Assembly: GCA_030683105.1 (NCBI GenBank)
Contig: JAUXMZ010000078.1
Location: forward strand, 1 to 64,000
DNA: 64,000 nt
Direction of reading: 5' to 3'
Source: Burkholderiales bacterium
GTDB taxonomy: Bacteria; Pseudomonadota; Gammaproteobacteria; Burkholderiales; SG8-41
Part shown: positions 219 through 4,506 of the stretch, piece after piece
Position numbering within the stretch: the stretch's first letter is position 1
Layout of the letters: each line of letters begins with the position of its first letter
Notes under the pieces: model-generated
Told to the model about the DNA's origin: nothing
Seen by the model: the letters and a program-made list of their open reading frames with translations, nothing else
The model's database searches: none
Position numbers and translations under genes: made by a program

Positions 219-1208
219 TTACAACCCAGCCCGGCTCTTCCCCTTCACCGCTTTATTCACCACGTTGATCGGCCATTCGCCGGACAGGACACGGCGCACT
301 TCGTTCGGCGCGCCTTCCTGCAGACCCACCATCGCCTGTTCGCTGTACCATGCGGCGTGCGGATTGATGATCACGTTCTCGCGGTTGCGCAGTGGGTGCG
401 GATTGGGCAGCGGTTCCGGGTCCGTCGTGTCGACCGCGCAGCCGGAGATTTTTTTCGCGTCGAGCGCGCGCACCAGCGCATCGGTGTCGATCAGCGGCCC
501 GCGGCCGCAGTTGATGAGCACGGCCTTCGGTTTCATGATCCCGAAGGTCTCATCGTTCATCATCTTCTTGGTCTGTGGCATCAGCGGCGCGTGCAGCGAC
601 ACGTAGTCCGACTGTTTGAGCAGGTCGTTCAGTTCGACCTTGGTGCCGGGCACGTCGAACTGGCCTTGTTTGACGAAGGGGTCGGAGTACAGCACTTTCA
701 TGCCGAACGCGGCGGCGCGCACCGCAACCGCGCGCGAGATGTTGCCGAAGCCGACCAGACCGAGCGTGCTGCCGGCGAGGCGGAACATCGGCTTGCCGGG
801 CGGCACGGCCCACGTCCCGGCGCGCACCTGCCGGTCGTAGAACGTGATCTTGCGCGCAGCGGACAGCAGCAGCGCCATGGTGTGCTCGGCCACTTCTTCG
901 ATGCAATAGCTCGGATTGTTGGTGACGATGATGCCGGCGGCTGTCGCCGCTTCGAGATCGATAGTGTCCACGCCGATGCCGTAACGCGCAATGATCTTGC
1001 ACTTTGGCATCTTGGCCATGACGTCCGCGGTGATCGGGCCGGCGTAGGTGTTGAGCAGCGCGATGCAGTCCGCGGCTTCCGTGATGAACTCCTCGGGCTT
1101 CTTGGTCTGCAGCGGAACCAGCTCCACATCAGCGCCCAGAATTTTTCGTTCCACGTCCACGGATTCCCAGACGTAGTCGGTGAGCACCACTTTCGTTTTT
1201 CCAGCCAT
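219..1208 (-). CDS. D-2-hydroxyacid dehydrogenase, CtBP-like
   Basis: The 329-residue protein has the two-domain architecture of NAD-dependent D-2-hydroxyacid dehydrogenases. The Rossmann loop is GFGNIS at residues 153-158, where the last Gly of the usual GxGxxG is Ser. The catalytic triad is visible as Arg236 (CGRGP), Glu265 (DPEP) and His284 (NPHAAWYSE). The His motif with Trp resembles the C-terminal-binding-protein-like branch rather than PGDH or D-LDH. The ATG is preceded by AAGGAAA. It would reduce a 2-oxoacid or oxidise a D-2-hydroxyacid; the substrate cannot be told. It is the last gene of the minus-strand series and is separated from the preceding dehydrogenase by a type A repeat. 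Confidence 0.85.
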   Translation of the reverse strand: MAGKTKVVLTDYVWESVDVERKILGADVELVPLQTKKPEEFITEAADCIALLNTYAGPITADVMAKMPKCKIIARYGIGVDTIDLEAATAAGIIVTNNPSYCIEEVAEHTMALLLSAARKITFYDRQVRAGTWAVPPGKPMFRLAGSTLGLVGFGNISRAVAVRAAAFGMKVLYSDPFVKQGQFDVPGTKVELNDLLKQSDYVSLHAPLMPQTKKMMNDETFGIMKPKAVLINCGRGPLIDTDALVRALDAKKISGCAVDTTDPEPLPNPHPLRNRENVIINPHAAWYSEQAMVGLQEGAPNEVRRVLSGEWPINVVNKAVKGKSRAGL

Positions 1209-1457: not shown

Positions 1458-2444
1458 TTACTGCTTGGCGTAGACTTCCGGGTTCCAGCAGTTCGGCGGC
1501 TGCTTGCCTTCCAGCAGCGCGAGGATGTTGTCGACCACGACATTGGCCATGCCTTCACGGACTTCCCTGATCGCGCTGCCCATGTGCGGCGTCAACACGA
1601 CATTTTCCATGGGGAACAGCGCCGGATCCGGTGTCGGCTCGTTTTCGAAGACGTCGATGCCGGCACCAGCGATCTTTTTCTCCTCGAGCGCGCGCACCAG
1701 CGCTTTTTCGTCGATGATGGGGCCGCGCGCGGTATTGACGATATAGGCCGTCGGTTTCATCAGACCGAATTCGCGATCGCTGATCAGATGCCGGGTCTCG
1801 GGCGTGAGCTTGATGTTGATGGACACGATGTCCGATTGAGACAGCACGTCATCGAACGGCATCCAGGTCATGCCGAGCGCTTTTTCTTCACTTTCCGGCC
1901 GCTGCTTGCGGCTGTAGTACAGCACTTTCATCTTGAAGCCGCGCGCGCGCTCCACCATGGCGCGGCCGATGCCGCCCATGCCGATGACGCCCAGCGTTTT
2001 GCCGGAAACGGCGCCGCCTTCGAGGTAAGAGGACTGGGAGCCTGGAAACACGCCGGTACGGACCAGGCGGTCGCCTTCAACCGTCCGGCGCACGACCGAC
2101 AGCAGCAGCGCCCAGGCGATGTCCGCGGTTGCGTCGTCGACGAGCAGGGCGGGGATGGTCGTCACCGGAATGTTGTGGGCCGTCGCCGCGGCGATATCGA
2201 TGTCGGCCGGCGTGATGGTCATCGAGGCCACCGCCTTGAGCTTGGGATTGGCATCGATCACTTCGCGGGGGACGCGATCGTGCAGCAGGCAGAACAGGAT
2301 GTCGCACTCTTTGGCCGCGGCGATCAGTTCATCCCTGGTCATGATGTGCTTCGCGTCGGTGTTCCATTTCACGTCCGCGACTTTTTGCAGTCGCGCAATG
2401 GCGCTTTGGGCTACGGGCTGGGTGATGTATATGCGTTGACGCAT
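1458..2444 (-). CDS. D-2-hydroxyacid dehydrogenase, glycerate/hydroxypyruvate type
   Basis: The 328-residue protein resembles D-glycerate (hydroxypyruvate/glyoxylate) dehydrogenases. It has the dinucleotide-binding loop GMGGIG at 155-160, and catalytic Arg240 (TARGP), Glu269 (ENEP) and His287 (TPHMGS). It probably catalyses NAD(P)H-dependent reduction of a 2-oxoacid in the cytoplasm. It lies in the same direction as the CtBP-like paralogue downstream but about 250 bp away, so the two may be transcribed separately. The family is certain, the substrate is not. Confidence 0.85.
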   Translation of the reverse strand: MRQRIYITQPVAQSAIARLQKVADVKWNTDAKHIMTRDELIAAAKECDILFCLLHDRVPREVIDANPKLKAVASMTITPADIDIAAATAHNIPVTTIPALLVDDATADIAWALLLSVVRRTVEGDRLVRTGVFPGSQSSYLEGGAVSGKTLGVIGMGGIGRAMVERARGFKMKVLYYSRKQRPESEEKALGMTWMPFDDVLSQSDIVSINIKLTPETRHLISDREFGLMKPTAYIVNTARGPIIDEKALVRALEEKKIAGAGIDVFENEPTPDPALFPMENVVLTPHMGSAIREVREGMANVVVDNILALLEGKQPPNCWNPEVYAKQ

Positions 2445-2544: not shown

Positions 2545-3192
2545 TCATTTGTTTGGCACGTCCTTGCTGCTCTCGCAGATCCTGCACGCGTAATCTTCGA
2601 GCGCGCTGGCGGTGACGCCCACGGCTCCGTGCTGCCTGCGGTTGTATTCCTCGGACTCGAGCTCGGTGCGGAACGAATCGTTGAGGCGGTTGATCATGTT
2701 GAACATAGCGCAGGCCATGGAGATTTCGACAATTTCGGCATCATTGAATTCCTTGCGCAGCGCTTCCCAGACCTTGTTGTCGCGTTTCGCGGTATTCAGC
2801 GTCATCGCTTCCGACCAGGCGATCACGGCTTTTTCCCGGTCGTTGAACAGCGGGCTCGCCTTGTAATCGCCTTTTAACGCGTCGAACTCTTCGTCCTTAA
2901 GTCCCAGTGCTTGACCAAGCACGTAATTGTGTTCTGTTCAGTAATGGCAGTCGTTGATGGTGGAGGTTTTCAACACCGCGAGATTGCGCAGGCGCACATC
3001 CGACACGGCGCCGGCCTTGGGCTGGCGCACGGCGGCGACCAGCGGCAGAAACCAGCGCGCAACGTACGGACTGTGGCACAGGATGCGCACCAGGTTCGCG
3101 GTGCGGCCCAGCAGCTGGTTGGAGGTGTCGAATACCTGCTTGACGACGCCGGTGGCTTCTTCGTCGCTGATGCCCTTGAGGCGCTGAGTCAT
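2545..3192 (-). CDS. AhpD/carboxymuconolactone-decarboxylase-like selenoprotein, TGA read as Sec85
   Basis: Two collinear halves in one frame, 84 and 130 codons, are separated by a single TGA at 2940-2938. Together they make a 215-residue AhpD/CMD-fold protein. The TGA falls exactly where the family has the second cysteine of its redox centre: C82-H-Y-[TGA]-T-E-H88, a CxxC...H site read here as CxxU...H. A perfect 6-bp hairpin with loop GGUC follows in the mRNA, its loop starting 25 nt from the U of UGA, as expected for a bacterial SECIS. The downstream half keeps good coding sequence, with a second Cys pair near the C-terminus (CRIC). Family members act as alkylhydroperoxidase-type thiol reductases. 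It sits 18 bp after the PEP-synthase-like gene and is probably cotranscribed. The alternative, a nonsense mutation or sequencing error, would not explain the hairpin. GTG at 2922 could be a spurious internal start. Confidence 0.82.
2907..2940 (-). promoter_or_regulatory. bacterial SECIS hairpin after UGA of the AhpD-like gene
   Basis: On the minus strand the UGA (2940-2938) is followed after 15 nt by the stem GUGCUU (2922-2917), the loop GGUC (2916-2913) and the complementary AAGCAC (2912-2907). The E. coli fdhF SECIS has the loop GGUCU at nt 22-26 counted from the U of UGA; here GGUC occupies nt 25-28. The stem is perfect and the loop has the G-then-U that SelB recognises. Confidence 0.75.
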
Positions 3193-3210: not shown

Positions 3211-4506
3211 TCAGGCGTTCTGTATCCAGCGCACCACGCCCGCGACGCCGTCGACGGAGATGCGCACGCCGTCGGGTATGCGCGTGGTGGCTTCGTGCAC
3301 ACCGAGCACCATGGGTATGCCGCGCTCGCGCGCGAGCGAGGCGAGGTGAGATGTGCTGCCGCCGCGCTCGGCGACGACGCCGGCAACCCGCGTCAGGATC
3401 TCGCTGAGCGCCGGGCCGGCGACTTTTGTCACCAGGATGTCTCCAGGGTTGACACGCTCGAGTTCGCACTCGCAGTTCACGATGCGCGCCTCGCCTTCGC
3501 CCCAGCCTATGCCGGCCGGATGGCCGTTAAGACGCGGGTGCTGCAGCCAGACTTTGTCGGGTTCACGCGCCTTCTCCATGTGCAGCGGACGGCTCTGCAG
3601 CATTTTGAATCCGCTGTCATCCATTGCCCATTCGATTTCAACCGGGATGCCCGCAAAATCTTCCGCCCGGCGCACCAACGCGCCAAGTTCGGCAGCCTGG
3701 TCCCGGCTCAGACACGGCTTGCTGATCATCGCCTTGGGCGCAACCCGGGTGGCGGATTCGGCGCCATGGCCGCAGCCGACGATATGATCCTTGCGGCCTG
3801 CGACTACATGCAGGACTTTTCCTTCGGCGCTCAGTTCGTAACGGTCAGGGGTCACTTCTCCCTGGGCGATGGCCGAGCCCAGTCCCCATGTAGCACTCAG
3901 CAACATGCCGCCATCGGCAGTGCGGCTCAAGCCGCCCCCGGACGCGCGCGCCGCGACCAGCGGCTGGATCAGCACGCCCATGGCCGTATCCGCTGGATCG
4001 GAATTGTTGGTGGCCATGTAGCGCAGCACGCGGGTCATCCACAGCGCGGCCCAGCACGAGCGCACAGCGGTGATGAAATCCGATTCGGTTTCGAGCCCGA
4101 TGAAACTTTCGAACTGGCCGGCAAAACTGGCGCCGAAACGATCCTCGACCAGGGCCGACGAACGCACGCAGGTCTGGGCACCGTTGGTCCTGGCTTTCAG
4201 GTCCCGCCATGCAGCAAGCAGCGGATTCAGAATCTCGGGAATGATGGGGTTGTCCAGCAGTCCGAGTTTCATGTTCAGCGCATGACGCCGGGCCTTGGCG
4301 CTGTCCCTTTCGGCGAATACGCCGCGCGCAGTCTCTTCCAGACCGAGGGTGGCAACCTGTTTGCGATACGCTGCGGCGTCGAGGCAAAAACCGTCGGGTA
4401 TGGGCAGGCCGGCGCGCCCCAGCGCCGCCTGATTGGCGGCTTTGGGGCCGAAACGGTTTGCGTCACACGCTTCAGCGGCGGTGACGGGTACGACGTATGA
4501 ATTCAT
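3211..4506 (-). CDS. PEP-synthase/PPDK-like two-domain protein
   Basis: The 431-residue protein has an N-terminal PPDK/PEP-synthase ATP-grasp region (about 15-310, with VRSSA at 114-118 and a QSRPL ending at 304-308). A swivelling phosphohistidine domain follows, with the catalytic His387 in GGSTSHLAS. The C-terminal PEP/pyruvate-binding TIM barrel of full PpsA or PPDK (over 750 residues) is absent. Such proteins could transfer phosphate from ATP to the mobile His and on to an unknown acceptor, as rifampin phosphotransferases do with a different domain order. Genuine PEP synthesis is unlikely. It ends 18 bp before the AhpD-like selenoprotein gene, which suggests one operon. Confidence 0.75.
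   Translation of the reverse strand: MNSYVVPVTAAEACDANRFGPKAANQAALGRAGLPIPDGFCLDAAAYRKQVATLGLEETARGVFAERDSAKARRHALNMKLGLLDNPIIPEILNPLLAAWRDLKARTNGAQTCVRSSALVEDRFGASFAGQFESFIGLETESDFITAVRSCWAALWMTRVLRYMATNNSDPADTAMGVLIQPLVAARASGGGLSRTADGGMLLSATWGLGSAIAQGEVTPDRYELSAEGKVLHVVAGRKDHIVGCGHGAESATRVAPKAMISKPCLSRDQAAELGALVRRAEDFAGIPVEIEWAMDDSGFKMLQSRPLHMEKAREPDKVWLQHPRLNGHPAGIGWGEGEARIVNCECELERVNPGDILVTKVAGPALSEILTRVAGVVAERGGSTSHLASLARERGIPMVLGVHEATTRIPDGVRISVDGVAGVVRWIQNA

Follow-up and report, generated by a model that had tools for sequence, protein, structure and literature searches.

AhpD-like selenoproteins with a CxxU motif, where U stands for selenocysteine (Sec), were described in 2005 from 27 Sargasso Sea sequences related to COG2128 (PMC1088965). 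AhpD-like 1 and AhpD-like 2 appear among the counts of a 2008 survey of GOS (PMC2398784). A 2026 review keeps TIGR01926, NF041047, NF041238 and PF02627 as separate entries, files the Sargasso Sea/GOS AhpD-like CxxU kind under TIGR01926, and equates NF041238 with hypothetical protein 1 of the Sargasso Sea (PMC13188914). Among relatives with cysteine, AhpD (Mycobacterium tuberculosis; PA0269 of Pseudomonas aeruginosa) has a C-x-x-C helix pair, and the account of its active site in PMC3141380 gives a proton relay of Glu118, Cys130, His132, Cys133 and His137. Bmp8 (6ohi, 6ohj), a debrominase, combines the AhpD-type fold with a C-x-Y-C-x-x-H layout.

The gene analysed here lies in the window, by which we mean the whole stretch of 64,000 nucleotides, on contig C50 of a 4.12 Mb assembly (78 contigs, 98% complete). 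It runs on the minus strand from an ATG at 3192-3190 to a TGA at 2547-2545 and is interrupted by a single internal stop, the TGA at 2940-2938, in the context C-H-Y-TGA-T-E-H-N (Table 1). Its translation, MTQRLKG...NDCHY-TGA-TEHNYVLGQALG...SSKDVPNK, has 215 residues with that one TGA included. Ordinary ORF calling without readthrough splits the gene into an 84-aa ORF and a 125-aa ORF. A preliminary description made from the DNA letters had joined the two collinear, same-frame halves over the TGA, and the comparisons below agree that they form one gene with the TGA as codon 85. On this comparative evidence, what seems to be a gene broken by a stop is almost certainly an intact selenoprotein gene whose TGA is read as Sec. 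Scanning the whole window, we found 69 sites, codon 85 included, where an in-frame TGA stands near a Cys codon; seven of the other 68, inspected by eye, look like ordinary stops or off-frame readings. Rfam at gathering scores gave no match in the window, and ARAGORN gave no tRNA there.

Table 1. Features at and around the putative selenoprotein gene (window positions)
Feature	Position	Strand	Basis
Putative AhpD/CMD-fold selenoprotein gene, 215 residues, Sec at residue 85	2545..3192	-	Comparative evidence and predicted fold
In-frame TGA, codon 85, second position of the CxxU motif	2938..2940	-	TGA in 30/30 sequences, Cys in homologues
Codon of Cys82, partner cysteine of C-H-Y-U	2947..2949	-	Invariant in 41/41 aligned rows
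Candidate bacterial SECIS hairpin GUGCUU-GGUC-AAGCAC, 6 bp, loop GGUC	2907..2922	-	Synonymous conservation, pairing
PPDK_N/PEP-utilizer-domain gene, directly upstream, 18 bases between	3211..4506	-	Pfam
D-2-hydroxyacid dehydrogenase gene, downstream	1458..2444	-	Pfam and neighbourhood
Second D-2-hydroxyacid dehydrogenase gene	219-1208		

With the AhpD-like CxxU selenoproteins of the literature the predicted protein shares the motif, the relationship to AhpD, a SECIS-type hairpin and the existence of Cys homologues (PMC1088965, PMC2398784, PMC13188914); in contrast to the Sargasso Sea and GOS sequences, the group here is mainly betaproteobacterial. It scores below the cut-off of every family listed, which comprised one Pfam and four NCBIfam entries (NF041047 was not among them). 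The scores are 21 bits for PF02627 (CMD; gathering cut-off 23), 67 bits for TIGR01926 (peroxid_rel; 81.8) and 38.4 bits for NF041238 (AhpD_rel_CFYUT; 175), of which positions 229-339 of 357 align. With NF041238 the protein shares an AhpD-related domain and, going by the name of the model, a C-x-Y-U-T motif. The best NCBIfam match is NF053654 (GroundWater_YciW, a YciW-related (seleno)protein), with 74.1 bits over residues 3-175; because its cut-off is 310 bits, the window protein is a relative and not a member of that family. A term search of PMC12013277 returned no mention of AhpD, CMD or betaproteobacteria. The kind is known, and within it the window gene and its orthologues form an apparently new orthologous group, set apart by family cut-offs and not by comparison with published sequences. 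The preliminary description had noted that AhpD-like selenoproteins were already reported, as the passages cited above confirm, and had also called this one new; since CxxU AhpD-like selenoproteins have been a known kind since 2005, the word holds for the orthologous group only.

A search of 149 genomes, the source genome included, at a threshold of E <= 1e-30 gave matches in 46, every one in the window's own family, which makes up 74 of the 149; none of the 75 others matched. All 67 matches listed (the gene's own included) have an in-frame TGA, some of them together with a stop at the match end or a further stop. In the 29 orthologues fetched, which are 75-87% identical at the protein level, codon 85 is TGA without exception (30/30 with the window's own copy); one of them, L057, has an additional later TAG that shortens its C-terminus. 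A scan of named genomes, in which the best 80 of 149 relatives were kept, found TGA at codon 85 in 45/45 loci at 66-87% identity, a set that overlaps with the 29 orthologues. Neither the 30 sequences nor the 45 loci contain a TAA or TAG at this codon. Most record titles in this identity range name Burkholderiales or Betaproteobacteria, that of L100 being Betaproteobacteria bacterium SG8_41; two of the 45 loci are Rokubacteria by title, and most of the genomes are MAGs by title. Records titled Bordetella parapertussis or Chitinophaga pinensis (L081, L102, L108, L110, L121, L115 and L119) hold genes of the betaproteobacterial group, and their titles look wrong. When 369 genomes drawn from the class were searched at 1e-40, the single match was the window's own gene. 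Across the genomes searched, the orthologous group is nearly confined to one betaproteobacterial family. Ordinary ORF calling would split the genes of these uncultured relatives too, and reading them correctly adds a well-supported selenoprotein group.

More distant homologues have cysteine in place of the TGA. Among 18 loci that are alphaproteobacterial by title and 44-62% identical, the codon is TGC or TGT in 17 and AGC in one, and below 42% identity TGA and Cys both occur. This places the TGA where the preliminary description had put it, at the second redox cysteine, and gives the usual mark of a selenoprotein gene: a UGA kept among orthologues and aligned with Cys in homologues. The AGC, a Ser codon, belongs to an Epibacterium homologue (L140:2501-3158) whose alignment falls into two pieces; this homologue may be decaying or suited to a different chemistry. 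The Rhodobacteraceae Cys homologues are 57-62% identical to the window protein, a clean Cys/Sec pair that would allow measurement of what selenium brings to the enzyme.

A single stop between two ORFs is the usual appearance of a nonsense mutation, and the TGA could in principle mark a pseudogene or a fault of sequencing or assembly. There is next to no chance of this: all 29 orthologues at 75-87% identity have the same TGA, and the codons of the downstream hairpin are frozen. When the window gene was compared with 28 orthologues (L057 left out), most differences from every one of the 28 lay at third positions on both sides of the TGA, so that by codon comparison purifying selection acts on the two halves alike. 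A sequencing error in particular is implausible because many other genomes carry the same TGA.

The hairpin that follows the TGA has 21 nt between the UGA and its loop. It lies at 2922-2907 and is the perfect 6-bp stem with a GGUC loop at the SECIS distance that the preliminary description had seen; its codons are conserved beyond their coding needs. The 30 sequences hardly vary in codons 91-96 (GTG CTT GGT CAA GCA CTG): the mean same-codon identity is 0.989 there and 0.535 in 80 degenerate codons further upstream. The 103 codon columns were shuffled 20,000 times, and no six-codon stretch reached the identity of the hairpin. Judged by this codon alignment, the hairpin codons are frozen at synonymous sites to a degree that exceeds chance.

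Pairing was counted in three groups of distinct rows, seven of 104 rows, with Ser, Met or another residue at the site, being left out. Of the 40 Sec rows above 60% identity, every one has a GGUC loop and 39 have a complete six-pair stem. The 31 Sec rows below 60% identity average 4.6 of six pairs in the same register, with GGUC at the loop in 17; in 13 of them the hairpin appears by eye to be shifted upstream. For the 26 Cys rows the mean is 3.5 pairs, with one row at 6/6 and three with GGUC. Covariation within the group is thin and consists of one double change: in L116, from Rokubacteria, both sides of one pair differ (U-A to C-G, CTTGGTCAAG to CTCGGTCGAG), which also replaces Gln by Arg in the protein. 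L086 has a U-G pair in the hairpin, and L118 has one mismatch.

Folding energy as proof of a SECIS element fails, since the energy of the hairpin is unremarkable against shuffles. The hairpin alone has -6.8 kcal/mol (z -1.0), a value matched by about one shuffle in seven. The 51-nt fragment has -9.0 kcal/mol (z -1.1) in a fold other than the hairpin, and shuffling the 81-nt fragment does not weaken its fold (z +0.8). The preliminary description had proposed folding the nucleotides after the TGA; window fragments of 38-48 nt do give the hairpin, and at 51 nt another fold is preferred in 10/10 sequences (the window and nine orthologues). The UGA itself is base-paired in the competing fold of six sequences, where the ribosome would presumably cover it, and left unpaired in that of four, including the window. 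The published bacterial SECIS model is fitted by the hairpin in spacing, loop and stem and has an energy limit of -7.5 kcal/mol (PMC13188914); the isolated hairpin narrowly misses this limit, and the lower energy of the 51-nt fragment belongs to the other fold. The SECIS case is carried by conservation and not by folding energy. The pattern TGA-N(12-30)-CTTGGTCAAG occurs in the source genome at this gene and at one further site (contig C57), with one match in the reversed control; because the matches hardly exceed that control, the exact hairpin is no shared signal of the genome.

The frozen codons also bear on a second alternative, in which only the N-terminal 84 residues are made, or two polypeptides with a restart after the TGA. 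A GTG-started ORF of 125 aa does follow the TGA. The frozen hairpin, however, begins with this very GTG, the Cys homologues read through codon 85 without a stop, the fold is predicted with high confidence across both halves, and the stop is TGA in 30/30 sequences, never TAA or TAG. Truncation or restart is therefore barely credible.

The source genome contains all four components of the Sec pathway for which a check had been proposed. Profile searches gave selA at 584 bits (cut-off 268), selB at 420 bits (242) and selD at 410 bits (125), and the tRNA-Sec gene scores 76 bits (47) with anticodon TCA (UCA). A second locus found with the tRNA-Sec model, at 49.7 bits, also lies above the cut-off of 47 and is probably another tRNA. 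The selD frame itself contains one TGA, in HGGG-U-GCK, with a small hairpin after it. Contig C56 carries, in this order, selA, selB, a thioredoxin-reductase-like gene and tRNA-Sec (TCA). The thioredoxin-reductase-like gene of this sel cluster (L020:5171-9868), which stands between selB and the tRNA-Sec gene, scores 242 bits, under its cut-off of 343, and is perhaps a dedicated selenoprotein reductase. Among the 149 genomes searched, selA is present in 44/46 genomes with a match (the two selA-less genomes are 84% and 88% complete) and in 46/103 without one; since so many matchless genomes also have selA, the co-occurrence is only consistent with Sec use and says little.

Readthrough by itself names no residue, and the TGA might be read by another route, such as a Trp or Cys suppressor tRNA or a changed genetic code. 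Such a route would require no SECIS, the window gene and several orthologues terminate with TGA, and elsewhere in the window a TGA that looks like an ordinary stop separates two further genes; the genome, moreover, has genes for tRNA-Sec (UCA), SelA, SelB and SelD. We give this route only the slightest chance. Pseudogene, sequencing error, restart and code change are rejected on TGA conservation, the frozen hairpin and the Sec machinery. The assignment of the TGA to selenocysteine in the preliminary description is upheld by that machinery, by Cys in the homologues and by the presence of the TGA in many other genomes.

AlphaFold2 modeling from 41 aligned sequences, with Cys in place of Sec, gave a pLDDT of 91.8. 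The 27 Sec and 14 Cys rows of this alignment were selected from the fetched sequences. Foldseek against the PDB placed AhpD of Deinococcus radiodurans (6k40; E 2.3e-7) first and the debrominase Bmp8 (6ohi; E 2.8e-7, 19% identity) second, and the model is predicted to have the AhpD/CMD superfamily fold with its CxxC(U) helix pair. Invariant in 41/41 rows are C82, residue 85, H88, S77, N80, W126 and E128. In AhpD the second Cys of the motif is the one that attacks the peroxide, and it is this Cys that is Sec in the window protein.

The canonical AhpD proton relay is incomplete in the window protein. The place of Glu118 is taken by Asn70, which is Asn in 17/17 rows of the orthologous group; the loss of the relay Glu does not track Sec, because 8/10 other Sec rows keep Glu and the Cys rows mostly have Gly. 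The place of His137 (+4) is taken by Asn89, an Asn in 27/27 Sec rows. Tyr84 stands at the His132 place, as in PA0269, and the invariant His88 is at +3 in 41/41 rows. Among the PDB sequences aligned at the motif, His is at +4 in PA0269, 2gmy and 6k40 and at +3 only in Bmp8, a comparison that covered the PA0269 type, 2gmy, 6k40 and Bmp8, with 2oyo, 2pfx, 3c1l, 2prr and more outside it. The window protein departs from AhpD in that Sec replaces the second Cys, Asn replaces the relay Glu, and the His sits at +3 rather than +4. By alignment, any alkylhydroperoxidase role would have to accommodate Asn in place of both the relay Glu and His(+4).

Taken together, coding of the TGA, the SECIS codons, the Sec machinery, the Cys/Sec pair and the predicted fold provide comparative support for the selenoprotein; Sec insertion in vivo and the identities of nucleophile, electron donor and substrate are what we infer beyond it. 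In the proposed scheme, SelB with Sec-tRNA(Sec) would bind the GGUC-loop hairpin 21 nt past the UGA, and the ribosome, rather than terminate, would place selenocysteine at residue 85. This would yield an all-helical AhpD/CMD protein with Cys82-x-Tyr84-Sec85 at a helix start, followed by the invariant His88. Sec85 would be the likely nucleophile on an oxidised or electrophilic substrate, Cys82 would resolve the selenylsulfide, and a thioredoxin- or lipoamide-type reductase may then reduce it. The protein is likely to be some selenol/thiol reductase. The "peroxiredoxin-type thiol/selenol reductase" of the preliminary description keeps its second half; "peroxiredoxin-type" is loose, because the fold is AhpD/CMD and two canonical AhpD relay residues are replaced.

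A selenoprotein that is no peroxide reductase, and acts as a reductive dehalogenase or other electrophile-acting selenol enzyme like Bmp8, is an unlikely alternative, though one with several points in its favour: Bmp8 is the second-ranked structural match, it alone among the PDB sequences aligned at the motif has His at +3 as here, and the canonical AhpD Glu and His(+4) are absent. Against it stand the identity of 19%, the small number of PDB relatives in the His comparison and the lack of any halogenated-substrate hint among the gene neighbours. Bmp8 has Cys where the window protein would have Sec, and the shared C-x-Y-C-x-x-H layout is known from one characterised protein and is therefore no proof that the layout defines a family. 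Bmp8 works like the deiodinases. The window protein might be a Bmp8-like C-x-Y-U-x-x-H selenoenzyme carrying out reductive dehalogenation or other electrophile reduction by selenol attack, as deiodinases do with an unrelated fold; it would then belong to a set of paralogous AhpD-like selenoproteins of one betaproteobacterial family, which the thioredoxin-reductase-like protein of the sel cluster would serve. We regard this extended form as very doubtful. The broader selenol/thiol reductase remains the preferred reading.

The tree of the 41 rows requires two Sec/Cys changes, forced by well-supported branches. Since the root is a midpoint root, the direction of these changes is undecided, and the program warned of long branches. 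The 2026 review states that aerobic bacteria seldom retain selenoproteins and that Sec-to-Cys changes are rare (PMC13188914). An AhpD-like family with at least two Sec/Cys exchanges on one tree is a test case for that rarity.

The gene neighbours, in the window and at the orthologue loci, indicate no clear function. The selenoprotein gene and the PPDK_N gene before it are probably co-transcribed. A PPDK gene and a 2-hydroxyacid dehydrogenase gene both lie beside the gene in 13/45 orthologue loci, some of which are truncated. In Yoonia (L125:3211-4230), the Cys homologue is followed by a gene that resembles thioredoxin reductase by eye; if conserved, this neighbour would hint at the electron donor.

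The source genome has seven matches in all; besides the window gene, two have a TGA and four do not. The two with TGA, L025 (CGYU) and L026 (CVYU), are weakly similar paralogues (26-27% identity), with their TGA placed at the codon 85 site by eye and not by alignment in the scripted comparison. Each TGA is followed by a 7-bp hairpin, and the 45-nt fragments have -16.8 and -15.9 kcal/mol. Both are probable AhpD-like selenoprotein genes. A profile search of 74 genomes found more TGA-bearing matches among the matches listed, their TGA positions being unverified.

Further TGA-bearing subfamilies occur among relatives at 30-42% identity. One has the motif C-x-Y-U-I-K/R-H-N, and another is a two-domain form. 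In five complete frames of the latter (L071:713-2107, L073:1455-2858, L074:760-2127, L075:555-2081 and L076:1711-3087) the first domain has C-x-Y-U. The second domain lacks both active-site Cys in 5/5, with the motifs SRYM, ATYL, ATYS, APYS and APYT in this set, and is perhaps a pseudo-enzyme half. Together these genes suggest a lineage in which several AhpD-like genes contain an in-frame TGA. One relative (G046, L058:653-6162) has three such genes with the TGA at the CxxU site within 5.5 kb: an orthologue of the window gene, a C-x-Y-U-I-K-H-N form and a two-domain form.
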